From positions 129,461-193,460 of the forward strand of contig NZ_KE383896.1 in the NCBI RefSeq assembly GCF_000422645.1: a stretch of DNA of 64,000 nt. The letters run 5' to 3'. Shown in pieces: positions 1,286 through 10,770 of the stretch. Below the pieces are notes generated by a model, which saw nothing but the letters and a program-made list of their open reading frames with translations, made no database searches and was not told the DNA's origin. Position numbers and translations under genes: made by a program. Within the stretch, counting starts at the first letter, position 1. Every line of letters starts with the position of its first letter. The stretch comes from Ferrimonas futtsuensis DSM 18154 (GTDB lineage Bacteria; Pseudomonadota; Gammaproteobacteria; Enterobacterales; Shewanellaceae).

Positions 1286-2281
1286 ATGGAACTGCTTGCT
1301 CCTGTGGCCAACCTGGCCGCCTTGGACAACGCCCTGGATGCGGGCGCCGACGCCGTCTATGTCGGATTAAAGAACGACACCAATGCCCGCCGCTTTGCCG
1401 GCATCAACTTCACACCACAGGAGTTGCAGGAGGCCGCCCGCCGCTGCCGGAGCCGGCAGAAAGCCCTGATGGTGGCCATCAACACCTTCCCTCAGCCCGG
1501 CCAGGAGTCCCGTTGGCAGGACGCAGTCGCCGTGGCCGCCGAAGCCGGAGTACAGGCACTGATCATGGCCGATCCCGGCCTGCTCGCCTTCGCCCAGAAA
1601 CACTATCCGGGCGTCGAACGCCATCTGTCGGTCCAGGCCAGTGCCGCCAATCTGCCCACCCTGAAACTGTTCCACCAGGAGTTTGGCATCACCCGGGCGG
1701 TACTGCCCAGGGTGCTGGACATCGATACCGTGGAAGCGATCTGTGCCGAGAGCCCGGTGGAGATCGAAGTGTTTGCCGGCGGCAGCCTGTGCGTCATGGC
1801 CGAGGGACGCTGTCAGCTCTCCCACTATGTCAGCGGCCACTCGCCCAACTCAGGCGGCGCCTGTTCTCCGGGCAGTCTGGTCAGCTGGGAGGAGCACCAG
1901 GGTGAGCGCGAAGTTCGCCTGGACGGTCACCTGCTGGACAAGGTGCAGCCCGGAGAGGCCGGCGGCTACCCGACAGTGTGCAAGGGCCAGTATCTGGTGG
2001 AGGGCAAACCCCTCTACCCCATCTCCCGCCCCTGCTCTCTCTCCACCCTGCCGCTGCTGGCCCGCTTTGGCCGAGCCGGGGTGGCGGCCCTAAAACTGGA
2101 AGGACGACAGCGCAGCCCCTACTACACCCGTCAGGTCACCCGGCTGTGGCGCGAGGCCATCGACCGCTGGCTGGCGGATCCCGAACATTACCGAAGCGAG
2201 CCAGGATGGCACCTGCAGCTCAAACCCCTGGCAGAGGGCGGCCTGGTGACCGCCGGCGCCTATCTGAGAAGCTGGCATTAG
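1286..2281 (+). CDS. ubiU: UbiU (YhbU), U32-family [4Fe-4S] protein of O2-independent ubiquinone hydroxylation
   Basis: A 331-residue U32 'peptidase' family protein. With UbiV it forms the heterodimer that hydroxylates ubiquinone precursors without O2, using prephenate as oxygen donor in E. coli. The start MELLAPVANL aligns with E. coli UbiU. The four cluster-binding cysteines fall at C169, C176, C193 and C232, the same numbering as E. coli. The EGRQRSPYYTRQV segment near the C-terminus is also conserved. ATG 1286 is chosen over an upstream in-frame ATG at 1232 because of the family N-terminus and the AAGGA ahead of it. ubiV follows after 8 bases, so the two form an operon. Confidence 0.95.
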   Translation: MELLAPVANLAALDNALDAGADAVYVGLKNDTNARRFAGINFTPQELQEAARRCRSRQKALMVAINTFPQPGQESRWQDAVAVAAEAGVQALIMADPGLLAFAQKHYPGVERHLSVQASAANLPTLKLFHQEFGITRAVLPRVLDIDTVEAICAESPVEIEVFAGGSLCVMAEGRCQLSHYVSGHSPNSGGACSPGSLVSWEEHQGEREVRLDGHLLDKVQPGEAGGYPTVCKGQYLVEGKPLYPISRPCSLSTLPLLARFGRAGVAALKLEGRQRSPYYTRQVTRLWREAIDRWLADPEHYRSEPGWHLQLKPLAEGGLVTAGAYLRSWH

Positions 2282-2289
2282 GAGGCCTC

Positions 2290-3165
2290 ATGAAACTGTC
2301 ACTGACACTCAACTGCTGGCCCCTGACCCGCCAGCAACAAAGCCAGCAGCTGGATGCCCTGACCCAGGCACCGGTGGCGCGCATCGTTCTGGGAGAAACC
2401 GTCTGCGAAAAAAGAGACCGTCCCTCTCTGCGTACCCTGCTTGAGGTGGCTGAGGTCGCCCAGGCCAGCGGCATCCAGGTGGTGCTGGCCAGCCTGAATC
2501 TGGTCAATGGTCCCCGGGAACTCAAGCTGGTAGAACAGGTGTGTGGTCAGCATTCCCTGATGGTGGAAGCCAATGATCTGACCGCCGCCGCCCTGCTCAA
2601 TGAGCTGGACCAGCCTTTCTGGGCCGGCGCCAACCTGAACATCTACAACAAGGAAAGCCTGGCCTGGATCGCCAGACTGGGTGCCATGGGCTACCAGCCC
2701 CCCATCGACATGAGCGAGGAGAACATGGCGCTGCTGCTGGAAGCGGGTAATGAGCTGGGGCTGGAGGGAGAGATACTCGGCTTCGGCTGGCCACAATTGG
2801 CGGTGTCTGCCCGCTGTGCCACCGCCCGTATCCATGGCCGCAACAAGGAGCACTGCGACAAGGTGTGCCAGCACCATCCGGTGCCCATGGCCAGCACCCT
2901 GGAACAGGAACCCCTGCTGCTGCTCAATGGCCCGCAGAATCACGGCGTCAAACCGGTGGACAGGCTGGACGGGCTGGCTCACTGGCAGCAGGTCGGCGCC
3001 CGCTGGCTGAGAATCATCCCTGGTCCCTGGCAACAGGGCGAGTGGTTACAGAGCCTGGAGGAGCTCAGCCATCCAGAGAGGGCGTCTCGTCTGCGTCGCG
3101 AAATACCAATACCAGGGCATAGAACAGCCACAGAGTTACACACAGCAACAGCAGCCAGCCTGTAA
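2290..3165 (+). CDS. ubiV: UbiV (YhbV), U32-family [4Fe-4S] partner of UbiU
   Basis: The second subunit of the anaerobic ubiquinone hydroxylase, 291 residues. Its cluster cysteines are C39, C176, C189 and C193, matching E. coli C39/C180/C193/C197 with a constant four-residue offset. The segment SARCATARIHGRNKEHC is characteristic. The start follows GGAGGCCTC directly after ubiU. The C-terminus is odd: the last ~33 codons (3065-3165) lie antisense to the end of the convergent DUF998 gene and lack the family's closing NGYW-like motif. The tail may be a read-through replacement, and the fold up to about residue 255 looks intact. Confidence 0.93.
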   Translation: MKLSLTLNCWPLTRQQQSQQLDALTQAPVARIVLGETVCEKRDRPSLRTLLEVAEVAQASGIQVVLASLNLVNGPRELKLVEQVCGQHSLMVEANDLTAAALLNELDQPFWAGANLNIYNKESLAWIARLGAMGYQPPIDMSEENMALLLEAGNELGLEGEILGFGWPQLAVSARCATARIHGRNKEHCDKVCQHHPVPMASTLEQEPLLLLNGPQNHGVKPVDRLDGLAHWQQVGARWLRIIPGPWQQGEWLQSLEELSHPERASRLRREIPIPGHRTATELHTATAASL

Positions 3166-6302: not shown

Positions 6303-7592
6303 TTATAGCACTGCGTATTTCACGACAAAGGCCAGGGCCAGCACCAGTACCGCCGGGTTCAGCTCTTTCACCCGGCCGGTCATCAGCTTCAGGGCCGCGT
6401 AGCTGATAAAGCCAACGGCGATGCCGTGGGAGATGGAGTAGCTGAGCAGCATCACCAGGGTGGTCAGCACTACGGGAGCCGCTTCGGTCAGATCTTCCCA
6501 GTCCACACCCACCAAACCGGACATCATCAGGATCGCCACATACAGCAGGGCGCCAGTGGTGGCATAGGCAGGCACCATGCCCGCCAGAGGGGAGAACAGC
6601 AGACAGGCGATGAACAGCACACCCACCACCACGGCGGTCAAGCCGGTGCGGCCGCCGGAGGCCACACCCGCGGTGCTCTCAACGTAACTGGTGGTGGTGG
6701 AGGTCCCCAGCATGGCACCGGCAATGGTGGCGGTGGAGTCAGCAAACAGCGCCTTGGAGAGGCGCGGCAGGCGACCGCGGTCATCCAGCAGGTTACCGCG
6801 CTGAGCCACGGCGATCAGGGTGCCCGAGGTATCGAACAGGTCCACAAACAGGAAGGCAAACACCACAGAGATCATGCCCACATCCAGGGCACCGGCCAGA
6901 TCCATCTGCATCAGGGTCGGAGTGATGGACGGTGGCGCAGACATGATGCCGGTAAACTCCTGCTTGCCGGTCAGCACCGCGACAGCACTGACGACCAGGA
7001 TACTGATCAGGACCGCCGCCTTGTTGCGAAACTGGACCAGGGTGATCACCAGCAGGAAGCTGAACATCGCCATGATGCTTTCGAATTTGGTCACATCACC
7101 GAGGGACACCAGGGTTGCCGGATTATCGACGATGATGCCTGCACCTTGCAGGCCGATAAACGCAAGAAACAGACCGATGCCGGCAGCAATACCCAGTCGC
7201 AGGGACATGGGAATGGCGTTGACGATCCACTCACGCACCTTGAACAGGGAGAGCAGCAAGAAGCAGATACCTGAGAGGAACACCGCACCCAGGGCGGTCT
7301 GCCAGGAGTAGCCCATCTGACCCACCACCACGAAGGTGAAGAAGGCGTTCAGGCCCATACCGGGCGCCAGAGCAATGGGGTAGTTGGCGACAAAGCCCAT
7401 GATAAAGCAACCAATGGCGGCTGCCAGACAGGTGGCGACGAACACGGCCCCTGAGTCCATGCCAGCCATTTCCAGCATGGAGGGGTTCACGAAGATAATA
7501 TAAGCCATAGCCAGGAAGGTCGTCAGGCCAGCGATCACCTCTTGGCGCACACTGGTCCCATGAGCCTTCAGCTTGAAGAGCTTTTCCATCAT
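6303..7592 (-). CDS. NCS2-family purine permease (AzgA-like; adenine/hypoxanthine/guanine uptake)
   Basis: A 429-residue inner-membrane proton-coupled nucleobase transporter with about 13 hydrophobic segments. AzgA-subfamily signatures are AMAYIIFVNPSML, APGMGLNAFFTF, VFLFVDLFDTSGTLIAVA and TTSYVESTAGVASGGRTG. E. coli relatives are AdeP/AdeQ and GhxP/GhxQ, and the exact purine cannot be told from sequence. It is a single gene with its own terminator. The start has AGGA six bases upstream. I looked for a purine riboswitch core in the leader and found none, nor a good PurR box. Confidence 0.9.
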   Translation of the reverse strand: MMEKLFKLKAHGTSVRQEVIAGLTTFLAMAYIIFVNPSMLEMAGMDSGAVFVATCLAAAIGCFIMGFVANYPIALAPGMGLNAFFTFVVVGQMGYSWQTALGAVFLSGICFLLLSLFKVREWIVNAIPMSLRLGIAAGIGLFLAFIGLQGAGIIVDNPATLVSLGDVTKFESIMAMFSFLLVITLVQFRNKAAVLISILVVSAVAVLTGKQEFTGIMSAPPSITPTLMQMDLAGALDVGMISVVFAFLFVDLFDTSGTLIAVAQRGNLLDDRGRLPRLSKALFADSTATIAGAMLGTSTTTSYVESTAGVASGGRTGLTAVVVGVLFIACLLFSPLAGMVPAYATTGALLYVAILMMSGLVGVDWEDLTEAAPVVLTTLVMLLSYSISHGIAVGFISYAALKLMTGRVKELNPAVLVLALAFVVKYAVL

Positions 7593-7812: not shown

Positions 7813-7842
7813 AAAAAAACGCCGGCAACAAGGTTACCGGCG
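7813..7842 (-). terminator. Terminator closing the tandem small-peptide transcript
   Basis: On the minus strand CGCCGGTAAC and GTTGCCGGCG form a strong stem (one imperfect pair) followed by seven T residues. It lies about 97 bases after the last small-peptide stop codon and would end a transcript of roughly 800 bases starting near 8617. Confidence 0.85.
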
Positions 7843-7938
7843 CAAAGGATGACAAATGTTCGGCCTTACTCCGCCGGCCAAAGCAGCCGACGACACAGAT
7901 GGGGTCCAATAACTGATGAAATTACACGAGGTTGATGC

Positions 7939-8028
7939 TTAGCGAGCGTAGTAGATCGCGGTCGCATTCCAGCTGGCGCTAGCCCAGCTGCCAATCAGAT
8001 TCACAGAGTAATCGAATGGGGCGTTCAT
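7939..8028 (-). CDS. Small peptide 3 of the tandem family (29 aa)
   Basis: The third and most downstream member. The peptide starts MNAPFDYSVNLIGSW and ends WNATAIYYAR. It keeps the family pattern MNxxFxYxVxLxG(S/T)W...WNA(T/S)xxYYA, with no cysteine and no signal peptide or transmembrane segment. GGAGAA stands eight bases before the ATG, preceded by a version of the shared leader (TTTGCAACGAATTTA). I do not recognise the family. Conservation of the protein pattern between three diverged copies, each with a ribosome site, argues that it is translated. Confidence 0.75.
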   Translation of the reverse strand: MNAPFDYSVNLIGSWASASWNATAIYYAR

Positions 8029-8065: not shown

Positions 8066-8129
8066 GTGCAGTTCCTTGGCACAACGACTCAGTTCCGTGG
8101 AGAGTATGCTGCCTCAGCGCTTTGAGGCA
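8066..8129 (-). promoter_or_regulatory. Leader of small peptide 3: capping hairpin and two GGA-loop hairpins
   Basis: In transcript order: TGCCTCA-AAGCGC-TGAGGCA (8129-8110), CTC-CACGGAACT-GAG (8102-8088) and GTGC-CAAGGAACT-GCAC (8082-8066), then GGAGAA before the ATG. GGA exposed in the loop of a short hairpin is the recognised form of a CsrA/RsmA site. That the protein binds here is inference. Confidence 0.65.
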
Positions 8130-8158
8130 TGGGCGGCTCCGCCGCCAGAGTGGATTGC

Positions 8159-8248
8159 TTAACCGGCGTAGTAGAGCGCAGATGCGTTCCAGTCGGTAGC
8201 AGACCAGGTACCGTACAGGCGGACTTGGTATTCAAACTGGGTATTCAT
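8159..8248 (-). CDS. Small peptide 2 of the tandem family (29 aa)
   Basis: The middle member. It starts MNTQFEYQVRLYGTW and ends WNASALYYAG. GGAGAA stands eight bases before the ATG, and GTTAGCAACTTTA before that is identical to the first unit. Polar and non-polar residues alternate on each side of the central SATD, which would suit a small beta-hairpin. The NAS here and NAT in its paralogues keep an N-x-S/T triplet. Function unknown. Confidence 0.78.
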   Translation of the reverse strand: MNTQFEYQVRLYGTWSATDWNASALYYAG

Positions 8249-8291
8249 AGGGTGTTCTCCTAAAGTTGCTAACACTGATTGTCAATTAGTG

Positions 8292-8348
8292 GTGCGGTTC
8301 CCTGGCACAGCACTCGGTTCCTTGGAGACGCTTTGCCTCATTGAGGCA
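8292..8348 (-). promoter_or_regulatory. Leader of small peptide 2: capping hairpin and two GGA-loop hairpins
   Basis: In transcript order: TGCCTCA-A-TGAGGCA (8348-8334), CTC-CAAGGAACC-GAG (8327-8313) and GTGC-CAGGGAACC-GCAC (8308-8292). The stems match those of units 1 and 3, and the changes between copies fall mostly in the loops or in spacer bases. Confidence 0.68.
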
Positions 8349-8371
8349 GATGGCGGGCTGACCGCCGTACG

Positions 8372-8467
8372 TTACTTCTTGCCAGCGTAGTAGATGCTGG
8401 TGGCGTTCCACTGGCCTTGGGACCAGGAACCGTACAGGGTAACGTCGTAACCGAATGGGTAGTTCAT
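8372..8467 (-). CDS. Small peptide 1 of the tandem family (31 aa)
   Basis: The first, promoter-proximal member. It starts MNYPFGYDVTLYGSW and ends WNATSIYYAGKK. It is two residues longer than its paralogues through a terminal KK. GGAGAAAAGATT before the ATG gives a good ribosome site. No double-glycine leader, Sec signal or lipobox is present, and no modification or export enzyme lies within several kilobases. If the peptide is secreted or modified, the machinery is elsewhere. It could also be a cytosolic regulatory peptide, or mainly a carrier for the RNA structures around it. Confidence 0.78.
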   Translation of the reverse strand: MNYPFGYDVTLYGSWSQGQWNATSIYYAGKK

Positions 8468-8508
8468 AATCTTTTCTCCGATAAAGTTGCTAACACCTAG
8501 TTCAAGTG

Positions 8509-8617
8509 GTGCGGTTCCTTGGCACAGCGGTCTCGATTCCTTGGAGAAACTCACGTCTCAACCGTTGAGACGATGAAGACCAACTCGGTCTTTACTAGGG
8601 GGAGTTGCCTCCCGACA
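8509..8617 (-). promoter_or_regulatory. 5' leader of the small-peptide transcript: three hairpins then two GGA-loop hairpins
   Basis: From the predicted start near 8617 the minus strand gives three hairpins in a row: GGGAG-GCAA-CTCCC, AGACC-GAGTT-GGTCT and GTCTCAA-CGG-TTGAGAC. The GGA-loop pair follows: TCTC-CAAGGAATC-GAGA (8547-8531) and GTGC-CAAGGAACC-GCAC (8525-8509). The third hairpin occupies the place of the TGCCTCA/TGAGGCA hairpin in units 2 and 3. Almost the whole leader can fold. Confidence 0.68.
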
Positions 8618-8623
8618 GTTGCT

Positions 8624-8651
8624 ATAATACCGATATGTAATTTTATTACAA
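8624..8651 (-). promoter_or_regulatory. Sigma-70 promoter of the small-peptide transcript
   Basis: On the minus strand TTGTAA (8651-8646) and TATTAT (8629-8624) are separated by 16 bases in an AT-rich setting. Transcription would start near 8617, about 150 bases before the first ATG. Confidence 0.6.
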
Positions 8652-8732
8652 GCCTTATCGTGATCTTTTTTGAAAAAAAGCCAATTTCTGAAAGTTTATT
8701 ACATGATAACCAATTGATATGGGCTGCAGAGG

Positions 8733-8748
8733 CGTGACCAGGATCACG
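8733..8748. promoter_or_regulatory. CRP-like palindrome upstream of the small-peptide promoter
   Basis: CGTGA-CCAGGA-TCACG is a perfect 5+5 inverted repeat with the CRP spacing and 8 of 10 matches to TGTGA-N6-TCACA. Its centre is about 124 bases upstream of the predicted start near 8617, farther than most class I CRP sites. Confidence 0.35.
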
Positions 8749-9249: not shown

Positions 9250-10770
9250 TTACAGCTCCTCCATCATCGCCAGCAGAGTCGCCACCGGCCGGGCGCTGGG
9301 TTTGCCGTAGAGGGGATCCCGTTTCTCCACCGCGGTGGCGGCGATGTCCAGATGCAGGTAGGGAATGGGGCTGTCACTGGCCAGCTGGTGCTTATCCAGC
9401 CCCGACGCCTTAAGCAGGAACGCCTGGGGAAACTGATGGCCCCGGCTGATGTTCACCGACGCGCCATTGTTGGAGGAGAGCAGATCCTCGGACTCGCTGC
9501 GACCCGCCACCTGGGCAAAATCCTCACGCCGCAGGGTGGAGATCTCCACCGGTTCGCCCCAGCGCTCACCAATCTGCTGCATCAACTGCCCCTGCTGACC
9601 TCGGCGGGCGACACTGTTCTCCACCACTCCGGTGTAGGGGCCGTAGGCGCGCACCACATGACCGGTGAGTGTGGCGATGGAGAACACCCTTGGCGACACC
9701 GCGCCCTGAGCATCCTGACGAAGGTGTGACAACAGATCCGCCAGCACCAGCCGTCCTTCGGCATCGGTGTTGCCGATGCGCACCCGTGCCCCGGCGTGGG
9801 AGGTAATGATCTCATCGGGTACGAAGGCGTCACTGCCCAGGGCGTTACGCACCAGGCCCATCTCGGCGATGATGCGGATCCCCTTGGGTCTGAGCATGGC
9901 CACCGTCTTCATAAAGCCGACCGTGGCCGCCGCTCCGCCCTTGTCCCGGCTCATGCCGGCCATGGCGCCCCCCACCTTAAGATCGGCGCCGCCGGTATCG
10001 AAGGTGACCCCTTTGCCAGCGATCAACCAGGTCTGGTGTACCTCACCTTCCGGGTTGTACTCGACCCGGACCACCCGGGCGGCATGGCGGGCAACGGCGA
10101 AGCTGGTGCGGGATACGGCGCTGAGCAGGGGATACTCCCTCACCAGTTGATCCTGATCGTCGATCACCGTCAGCTCCACCGGCTCCTCGGCAAACAGACC
10201 GACACAGTAGTCGGCGAAGGCAGGCGGCGCCATCTGCTCCGGGTCGCCGCCGCAGAGATCCCGGGCGGCAATCCGGCCCGCCTCCAGCGCATTGAGACGC
10301 GCCACATCCTGGCCATTCATCAAGCCGATACGCACCCGGGGCTGATCTTCCACGTCCGGATTAAGATAGAGCCCCTGACCACAGCCCAGGGCCGCCACCT
10401 CGGCGGCGTTCAGATAACGGGGGTCGCCATCGGGCAGGTCCAGCAACAGCAAGATGTCGCGGGCGCCGGACCGAAACGCCATCTTGGCTCCCTCTTCCGC
10501 CGCCTCATACACCCGGCGAACATCCTCGTAGTCATCCCTGATGTCGCCGGTGGGTGCCAACACCAGACGCCCCCCCGCCAGTCCCGGTGCCAGCAACAGG
10601 GTCGGTTCCTTGCCGATGCGCTGATCCACCGAGGCGGCGTGGTCCACCAGCTGACCCAGTTCCGGGTTGGCTTCCAGGGTAAAATCCTGGCTGACCACCA
10701 GCAGCGCATCCCAGCCACCTTCACCAAATTGGGCGTCCTCGGCCGGAGTAAAAAATTCCACTTGTGCCAT
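9250..10770 (-). CDS. M17-family leucyl aminopeptidase (PepA/PepB-like)
   Basis: A cytoplasmic metalloaminopeptidase of 506 residues, about the length of PepA. The catalytic C-terminal half carries GKGVTFDTGGADLK, MSRDKGGAAATVG, the family signature NTDAEGRLVLADLL and GASVNISRGHQFPQAFLL. These contain the two-zinc ligands and the catalytic Lys and Arg positions. The N-terminal half is divergent, so the symbol is left open. It starts at an ATG with AGGAAGAGAAC upstream, divergent from pepD by 120 bases. A peptidase pair next to each other suggests shared peptide turnover. Confidence 0.9.
   Translation of the reverse strand: MAQVEFFTPAEDAQFGEGGWDALLVVSQDFTLEANPELGQLVDHAASVDQRIGKEPTLLLAPGLAGGRLVLAPTGDIRDDYEDVRRVYEAAEEGAKMAFRSGARDILLLLDLPDGDPRYLNAAEVAALGCGQGLYLNPDVEDQPRVRIGLMNGQDVARLNALEAGRIAARDLCGGDPEQMAPPAFADYCVGLFAEEPVELTVIDDQDQLVREYPLLSAVSRTSFAVARHAARVVRVEYNPEGEVHQTWLIAGKGVTFDTGGADLKVGGAMAGMSRDKGGAAATVGFMKTVAMLRPKGIRIIAEMGLVRNALGSDAFVPDEIITSHAGARVRIGNTDAEGRLVLADLLSHLRQDAQGAVSPRVFSIATLTGHVVRAYGPYTGVVENSVARRGQQGQLMQQIGERWGEPVEISTLRREDFAQVAGRSESEDLLSSNNGASVNISRGHQFPQAFLLKASGLDKHQLASDSPIPYLHLDIAATAVEKRDPLYGKPSARPVATLLAMMEEL

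Follow-up and report, generated by a model that had tools for sequence, protein, structure and literature searches.

A conserved tiny-peptide unit with HexR-type operators and predicted CsrA-type leaders in Ferrimonas and related bacteria

Results

A repeated tiny-peptide unit before an NCS2-type permease gene

In a 64,000-nucleotide stretch of Ferrimonas futtsuensis DSM 18154 (the window), a tiny-peptide unit lies between a pepB-like cytosol-aminopeptidase gene (9250-10770), its upstream flank, and an NCS2-type permease gene (6303-7592). The unit is on the minus strand, as are all of its features given below, and contains three repeats of two GGA hairpins, a Shine-Dalgarno (SD) sequence and a tiny open reading frame (ORF). 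It is headed by a sigma-70-type promoter, TTGTAA-16-TATTAT (8624..8651; -35 at 8651, end of the -10 at 8624), which matches the consensus (1.2 such matches were expected in shuffles), and the transcription unit ends at a terminator-like hairpin of 11 pairs with a T-tract (7819..7843; 1.1 expected in shuffles). Two HexR-type operators accompany the promoter. The proximal one, TGTAATAAAATTACA (8636..8650), matches the palindrome TGTAATNAAATTACA exactly and overlies both the -35 and the spacer of the promoter; the distal one, TGTAATAAACTTTCA (8689..8703), has 2 mismatches to it and is located 53 bp further upstream.

Unit 1 begins with GGA hairpin 1, CUC-CAAGGAAUC-GAG (8532..8546), and GGA hairpin 2, GUGC-CAAGGAACC-GCAC (8509..8525), followed by a GGAG SD (8476..8479) that is complementary to the CUCC of hairpin 1, and by ORF 1 of 31 aa, MNYPFGYDVTLYGSWSQGQWNATSIYYAGKK (8372..8467). 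The two hairpins of unit 2 (8313..8327 and 8292..8308) precede ORF 2 of 29 aa, MNTQFEYQVRLYGTWSATDWNASALYYAG (8159..8248), and those of unit 3 (8088..8102 and 8066..8082) precede ORF 3 of 29 aa, MNAPFDYSVNLIGSWASASWNATAIYYAR (7939..8028).

An initial annotation of this DNA had described six GGA hairpins, two before each tiny gene, with stems kept in all copies and sites spaced for a CsrA dimer. We found that the motifs are exact matches to CTCCANGGAANNGAG (hairpin 1, three copies) and GTGCCANGGAANNGCAC (hairpin 2, three copies), that each pair is indeed followed by an SD and a tiny ORF, and that the stems are the same in the three copies, with differences confined to loops and spacers. The window held one further match per motif, with 1 mismatch for CTCCANGGAANNGAG and 2 mismatches for GTGCCANGGAANNGCAC; at the same mismatch levels, shuffled windows had means of 0.40 and 0.69 matches, respectively. 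The exact motif pair was present three times in the whole genome, always in the tiny-peptide unit, and 0 times in the backward control. The spacing also suits a dimer, with 20-22 nt between motifs and a bridging range of 10-63 nt given, along with the CsrA consensus, loops and weak stems, in the accessible part of a published account (PMC7652899). By eye, every SD contained GGA (UAGGA in units 2 and 3, UCGGA in unit 1) without a conserved ANGGA, and ANGGA or YAGGA lay on the SD in some leaders only.

Conservation within Ferrimonas

The NCS2 permease was found in all 14 Ferrimonas genomes, and a GGA leader with a tiny ORF in 13, directly before the permease in 12. Five genomes carry three units (G000, G005, G008, G011 and G012), and 6 of the 13 unit-bearing genomes a single one (G001, G003, G004, G006, G007 and G013). 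G010 has two units: one is separated by about 9.5 kb from the permease, on its upstream side, and the other, a leader and ORF with one operator only, is on a separate contig (C24, L063). No unit was found in G009, where 717 bases of contig precede the permease. Ferrimonas sediminicola has a close relative of the window peptides. G002 (L054, oriented about 1757-3150) carries two complete units some 750 bp from each other, each with its own promoter, terminator and operators, in contrast to the three-in-one-transcript form of the window.

The leader family extends beyond the genus

A covariance model (R1) constructed from 17 Ferrimonas leaders, taken from six genomes, matched 17 of 247 genomes of the order, including 12 of genus g2, a family member much larger than Ferrimonas and, going by the GTDB layout, probably Shewanella. 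Reading the matches in all 12 g2 genomes revealed an operator (<=2 mismatches), GGA hairpins and an ORF of 30-32 aa in each. The flanks, inspected by eye in both sister-genus loci checked, were pepB and the NCS2 permease, as in the window. A second model (R2), constructed from 13 of the sister-genus leaders and including the SD and ATG, matched 131 of the 152 genomes of the family, namely 121 of g2, 5 of g4 and 5 of Ferrimonas. Across 394 genomes of the order it matched 27, all inside the family. R2 missed 9 of the 14 Ferrimonas genomes, including that of the window, and the link between the genera thus rests on R1 and R2 together.

For the family as a whole we sampled 73 loci from the 126 non-Ferrimonas genomes with an R2 match, which gave 89 leaders. 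An ORF of 29-33 aa followed all 89; since R2 contains the SD and ATG, it is the ORF length and the operator that are independent of the model.

The tiny ORFs appear to be under purifying selection

Comparison of the Ferrimonas ORFs gave a pooled dN/dS of 0.18 (16 pairs, all below 1), the pairs being orthologues and paralogues of equal length that are 80-97% identical. Single comparisons were small; ORF 3 of G000 and G012, for example, differed by 3 synonymous and 4 nonsynonymous changes. Outside Ferrimonas the value was 0.16 (316 pairs, 310 below 1), to which constraint from RNA structure could add. The sequence comparisons thus point to apparent purifying selection on the tiny ORFs.

The peptides had no Pfam or NCBIfam match, and the window and ten loci had no Rfam match at gathering scores. 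Ferrimonas and sister-genus peptides share a loose pattern only, aromatic-rich with (N/S)(T/S)W and GG(L/M)(F/Y). A peptide search (A3) found 3 of 394 order genomes, all Ferrimonas; another search gave weak peptide matches in G039 and G041. Because the A3 search stayed within the genus while the leaders reach the sister genus, the peptides seem to diverge faster than the leaders. AlphaFold models of the peptides were of low confidence and showed only helices (pLDDT 62.8 and 57.7). The idea that the Ferrimonas peptide forms a beta-hairpin, with indels mainly in the presumed turn, was unsupported by these models and was set aside.

Homologous leaders carry predicted GGA hairpins on other stems

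Folding of the whole transcript did not bear out the six separate hairpins, which were absent from the minimum-energy fold, and its stability did not exceed that of shuffles (z -0.55). In folds of single leaders the predicted unpaired GGA varied from leader to leader, and hairpin 1 was not the favoured fold in most of them. This hairpin has 3 pairs (CUC-GAG) and a loop of 9 nt, and its stem is invariant in 86 of 86 rows of the family alignment, without covariation. As both stems are likewise invariant across the window copies, these copies alone give no covariation, and the display of GGA in hairpins is backed by the homologous leaders instead. The covariance-model search of related genomes, which the initial annotation had suggested, found such leaders (R1 and R2), with other GGA hairpins, namely hexaloop ANGGAU and pentaloop AGGA hairpins on other stems, and with compensatory stem changes in some of the hairpins.

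The strength of these changes differed between leader groups. A second Ferrimonas group of eight leaders keeps the AGGA pentaloop while three stem pairs are changed on both sides. Double-change cells in this group numbered 13, compared with 6.9 in shuffles (0 of 500 as high); double-change pairs numbered 4, not above the shuffle mean of 3.7, and the changes split the leaders 4:4. Among the 13 sister-genus leaders, double changes occurred in 2 of 20 pairs, a weak signal that was reached by 37 of 500 shuffles. When all 89 family leaders were fitted to R2, double changes were present in 13 of 20 pairs, with 65 double-change cells (shuffles 21.9; slid controls 6-32), in an alignment that is itself fitted to the structure. 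The signal peaked in HP2 and in the closing helix, and the GGA hairpin HP1b showed pairing in 54.5% of cells only. An AAGUUG-CAACUU helix near the SD is conserved. We rejected it as covarying, as it beat shuffles and barely beat swapped partners (mean 6.68 versus 6.48-6.66).

CsrA-type sites and the direction of control

All 114 leaders contained the motif CTCCANGGA...GAG, in which N was A in 88, G in 19, C in 4 and T in 3. That the N of ANGGA is free while the rest is conserved fits CsrA. ANGGA or YAGGA motifs were also frequent, with 4.0 per leader, where dinucleotide shuffles gave 1.1 (111 of 4250 as high), and 2.8 per leader in Ferrimonas compared with 0.67 (77 of 1250 as high); across the family, leaders hold 2-5 CsrA-type motifs each. 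CsrA itself is encoded in the genome (one PF02599 match). Judged from these sequences, the assignment to the CsrA type is well supported, and CsrA is quite likely to bind the leaders.

In an alternative reading, CsrA would not be the ligand of the GGA hairpins. They might serve as ribosome standby sites, since AAGGA looks SD-like, bind another RNA-binding protein, or act as stems that protect from RNase; CCANGGAA is kept beyond the CsrA core in most Ferrimonas hairpins, and their assignment to CsrA is a prediction from sequence. We consider this unlikely, as an N that can be A, G, C or T suits CsrA better than an SD, and as the homologues set hexaloop and pentaloop GGA motifs on other stems.

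The initial annotation had further proposed a CsrA-bound mRNA on which CsrA co-ordinately represses the peptides. The first part is retained as a CsrA-type leader, given the conserved ANGGA, the compensatory stems, the 20-22 nt spacing and the encoded CsrA and CsrB-like RNA; co-ordinate repression is kept as one candidate. The placement of the sites before the SD, together with a consensus pairing between CUCC and the SD, makes activation by CsrA possible. By analogy we lean slightly to repression, in which CsrA, as in glgC, would span the roughly 40 nt that separate an upstream hairpin from the GGA in the SD, with activation as in ymdA nearly as likely.

Under activation, the CUCC of hairpin 1 would pair with the GGAG SD, and CsrA would capture CUC-GAG and thereby free the SD. 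The RNAalifold consensus folds of all three leader groups contain the CUCC-SD pairing, CUCC and a GGAG SD occur together in 114 of 114 leaders, and the CUC stem shows no variation beside compensated changes in some other stems, as expected for a doubly constrained strand; ymdA of Escherichia coli provides a precedent, as the available part of its description indicates (PMC7492729). However, CUCC will complement an SD as a matter of course. Extra pairs in the flanks of the CUCC-SD pairing numbered 0.94 in Ferrimonas compared with 0.74 for swapped partners (122 of 500 as high) and 0.21 compared with 0.35 outside Ferrimonas (490 of 500 as high), which does not support the switch. When the GGAs were held unpaired, predicted SD access rose in 7 of 25 leaders only, with no consistent direction, so that the thermodynamic models did not reproduce a release of the SD. 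On balance we rate activation by this route as somewhat less than an even chance.

The leaders as a CsrA sponge

Another suggestion of the initial annotation, that the mRNA acts as a CsrA sponge, emerged weaker. It would make titration the main task of the transcript and the ORFs incidental, and a transcript of 0.8 kb that carries six GGA hairpins, 2-5 motifs in each family leader and an AGGA hairpin in related leaders that resembles the CsrB repeat CAGGA(U/A/C)G are in keeping with it. However, a CsrB match is present in 14 of 14 Ferrimonas genomes (above the family cut-off in 5); its position in the genome of the window is C3:118473-118771, some 19 kb away from the tiny-peptide unit, with a UvrY-like box upstream (by eye), while the window itself had no CsrB (Rfam) match at gathering score. 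Furthermore, an ORF follows the hairpins in 89 of 89 leaders, although the model includes the ATG and not the ORF, with dN/dS at 0.16-0.18, and 6 of the 13 unit-bearing Ferrimonas genomes have one unit only. A transcript that is mainly a sponge therefore appears improbable, and because the hairpins accompany a seemingly constrained ORF, any titration would probably be no more than a side effect.

Five Ferrimonas genomes (G003, G004, G007, G009 and G013) each showed a pair of CsrB-like matches separated by a few hundred bases, apparently tandem CsrB genes, for which csrB1 and csrB2 of Shewanella oneidensis offer a comparison in the part of the source at hand (PMC3171408).

HexR-type operators at the promoter

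At each of 15 Ferrimonas promoters the palindrome TGTAATNAAATTACA covers the -35 and the spacer with 0-1 mismatch, and the arrangement of -35, operator and -10 is similar across the genus. A second operator (<=3 mismatches) is found 52-53 bp upstream, or 63 bp in G002, at 13 of the 15. The exceptions are the second unit of G010, which lacks it, and G006, where a site with 3 mismatches 84 bp away was not counted. At the family leaders an operator was present in 89 of 89 at <=2 mismatches and in 85 at <=1, and 54 of the 89 had a second one, at a spacing of 51-53 bp (50 leaders), 62-63 bp (3) or 74 bp (1). The spacings of 52-53 and 63 bp are five and six turns of DNA.

In the genome of the window we found ten operator-like places at 0-1 mismatch (4 exact, 6 with one mismatch), compared with 1 in the backward control. 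The exact ones are at the tiny-peptide unit, before gpmM, before adhE and at L082, and a one-mismatch operator lies between ppsR and ppsA (ppsA named by eye). Neighbours of the five other one-mismatch operators (L084-L088), among them one AgcS, were not recognised as carbon genes. The only PF01418 regulator in the genome, of HexR type, is encoded between pykA- and zwf-like genes (neighbours named by eye), a zwf-hexR-pykA context that we take to mark the hexR gene.

A regulator other than HexR would accommodate the six of ten places, including the exact one at L082, near which no carbon gene was recognised, and the zwf-hexR gap, which by eye holds no site better than one with 3 mismatches; the assignment, moreover, was made from sequence. 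On the other side, exact or near-exact sites stand before gpmM, adhE and ppsA/ppsR, the sole PF01418 regulator adjoins the pykA- and zwf-like genes, and the palindrome is identical to the HexR motif given in the accessible part of PMC11906056. Another regulator is thus very improbable, and we retain HexR as the predicted regulator.

The exact operator of L082 (1501-1515) is set in extended intergenic DNA, with a phosphatase-like ORF on one side and, on the other, a small ORF that had no NCBIfam match; no carbon gene is obvious there, and an unannotated small gene is perhaps present. A CRP-like palindrome between the operators, 60 bp upstream of the proximal one, was seen with <=2 mismatches in 13 of 89 loci compared with 1 of 89 shuffled, and is uncertain. 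In the window a CRP-like palindrome was seen by eye upstream of both operators (8733-8748).

Discussion

The HexR-type operators, the family-wide spread and the conservation of the peptides, all read from sequence, are new relative to the initial annotation. Together with the leaders they lead us to favour, with moderate confidence, a self-contained unit for a tiny peptide of about 30 aa that is under two-level control by HexR and CsrA. The ligand of HexR is KDPG, of the Entner-Doudoroff pathway. From the position of the operator over the -35 and spacer we infer that HexR would block the promoter until KDPG rises, and the second operator five or six turns upstream would help HexR. On the transcript, CsrA dimers would bind the GGA hairpins, one dimer per pair, and so set peptide output. 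Like some other tiny proteins, the peptide might then act on central metabolism by tuning one of its enzymes, transporters or regulators.

The predicted leader resembles known CsrA-bound leaders, such as those of glgC (repressed) and of ymdA and moaA (activated), in having at least two GGA sites, predicted weak hairpins and bridging-range spacing upstream of the SD, as far as the available part of PMC7652899 describes them. It differs in its 9-nt loops, a hexaloop being usual for CsrA, in its invariant CUC-GAG stem, in being repeated for each tiny ORF and kept across a bacterial family, and in that CsrA binding is here a prediction. Arrays of GGA hairpins are shared with the CsrB/RsmZ sponges, and the AGGA hairpin of related leaders is like a CsrB repeat; unlike these sponges, the unit is predicted to be coding, has fewer sites, carries a HexR-type and not a UvrY-type promoter box, and had no Rfam match.

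With the HexR regulon of Shewanellaceae and Vibrionales the unit shares the operator and its overlap with the promoter. In Shewanellaceae this regulon includes glycolytic and fermentation genes, according to the part of PMC5343134 available. What sets our case apart is the target, a tiny-peptide unit that the accessible parts of PMC5343134 and PMC11906056 do not name, and the paired operators at five or six turns. A literature search, covering some sources in part, gave no description of the tiny peptides or the leader, and the target list of the main Shewanella HexR paper (Leyn 2011) could name the unit.

VcdRP of Vibrio cholerae likewise yields a peptide of about 30 aa from a short carbon-regulated transcript. 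Its peptide VcdP (29 aa) binds and activates citrate synthase, and the part of the VcdRP text available makes no mention of CsrA (PMC8672173). VcdRP is under CRP control and includes a base-pairing sRNA. VcdP may serve as the nearest functional analogue known to us, by analogy alone.

The peptide family, the structured leader family and the promoter architecture, without Pfam, NCBIfam or Rfam match, are kept across a family that probably includes Shewanella, which is used as a laboratory organism. The unit seems to join two main carbon regulators, HexR and Csr, at one small gene, and a target of the peptide would expose a new control point in metabolism. One further reading, which is speculative and which we hold to be unlikely, is a KDPG-gated coupler, in which relief of HexR would yield an mRNA that titrates CsrA and a peptide whose translation reports free CsrA. 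If so, one small transcript would relay the state of HexR into the Csr system and metabolism.

Four weak R1 leader matches were obtained outside the family (G242, G109, G169 and G222), and that of G242 was rejected on reading. The other three, G109 (L104), G169 (L105) and G222 (L106), have by eye similar GGA-hairpin leaders before unrelated tiny ORFs of 40 and 29 aa, so that this style of leader may predate the peptide. In G109 an exact operator is present as well, with the leader seemingly just before the permease.
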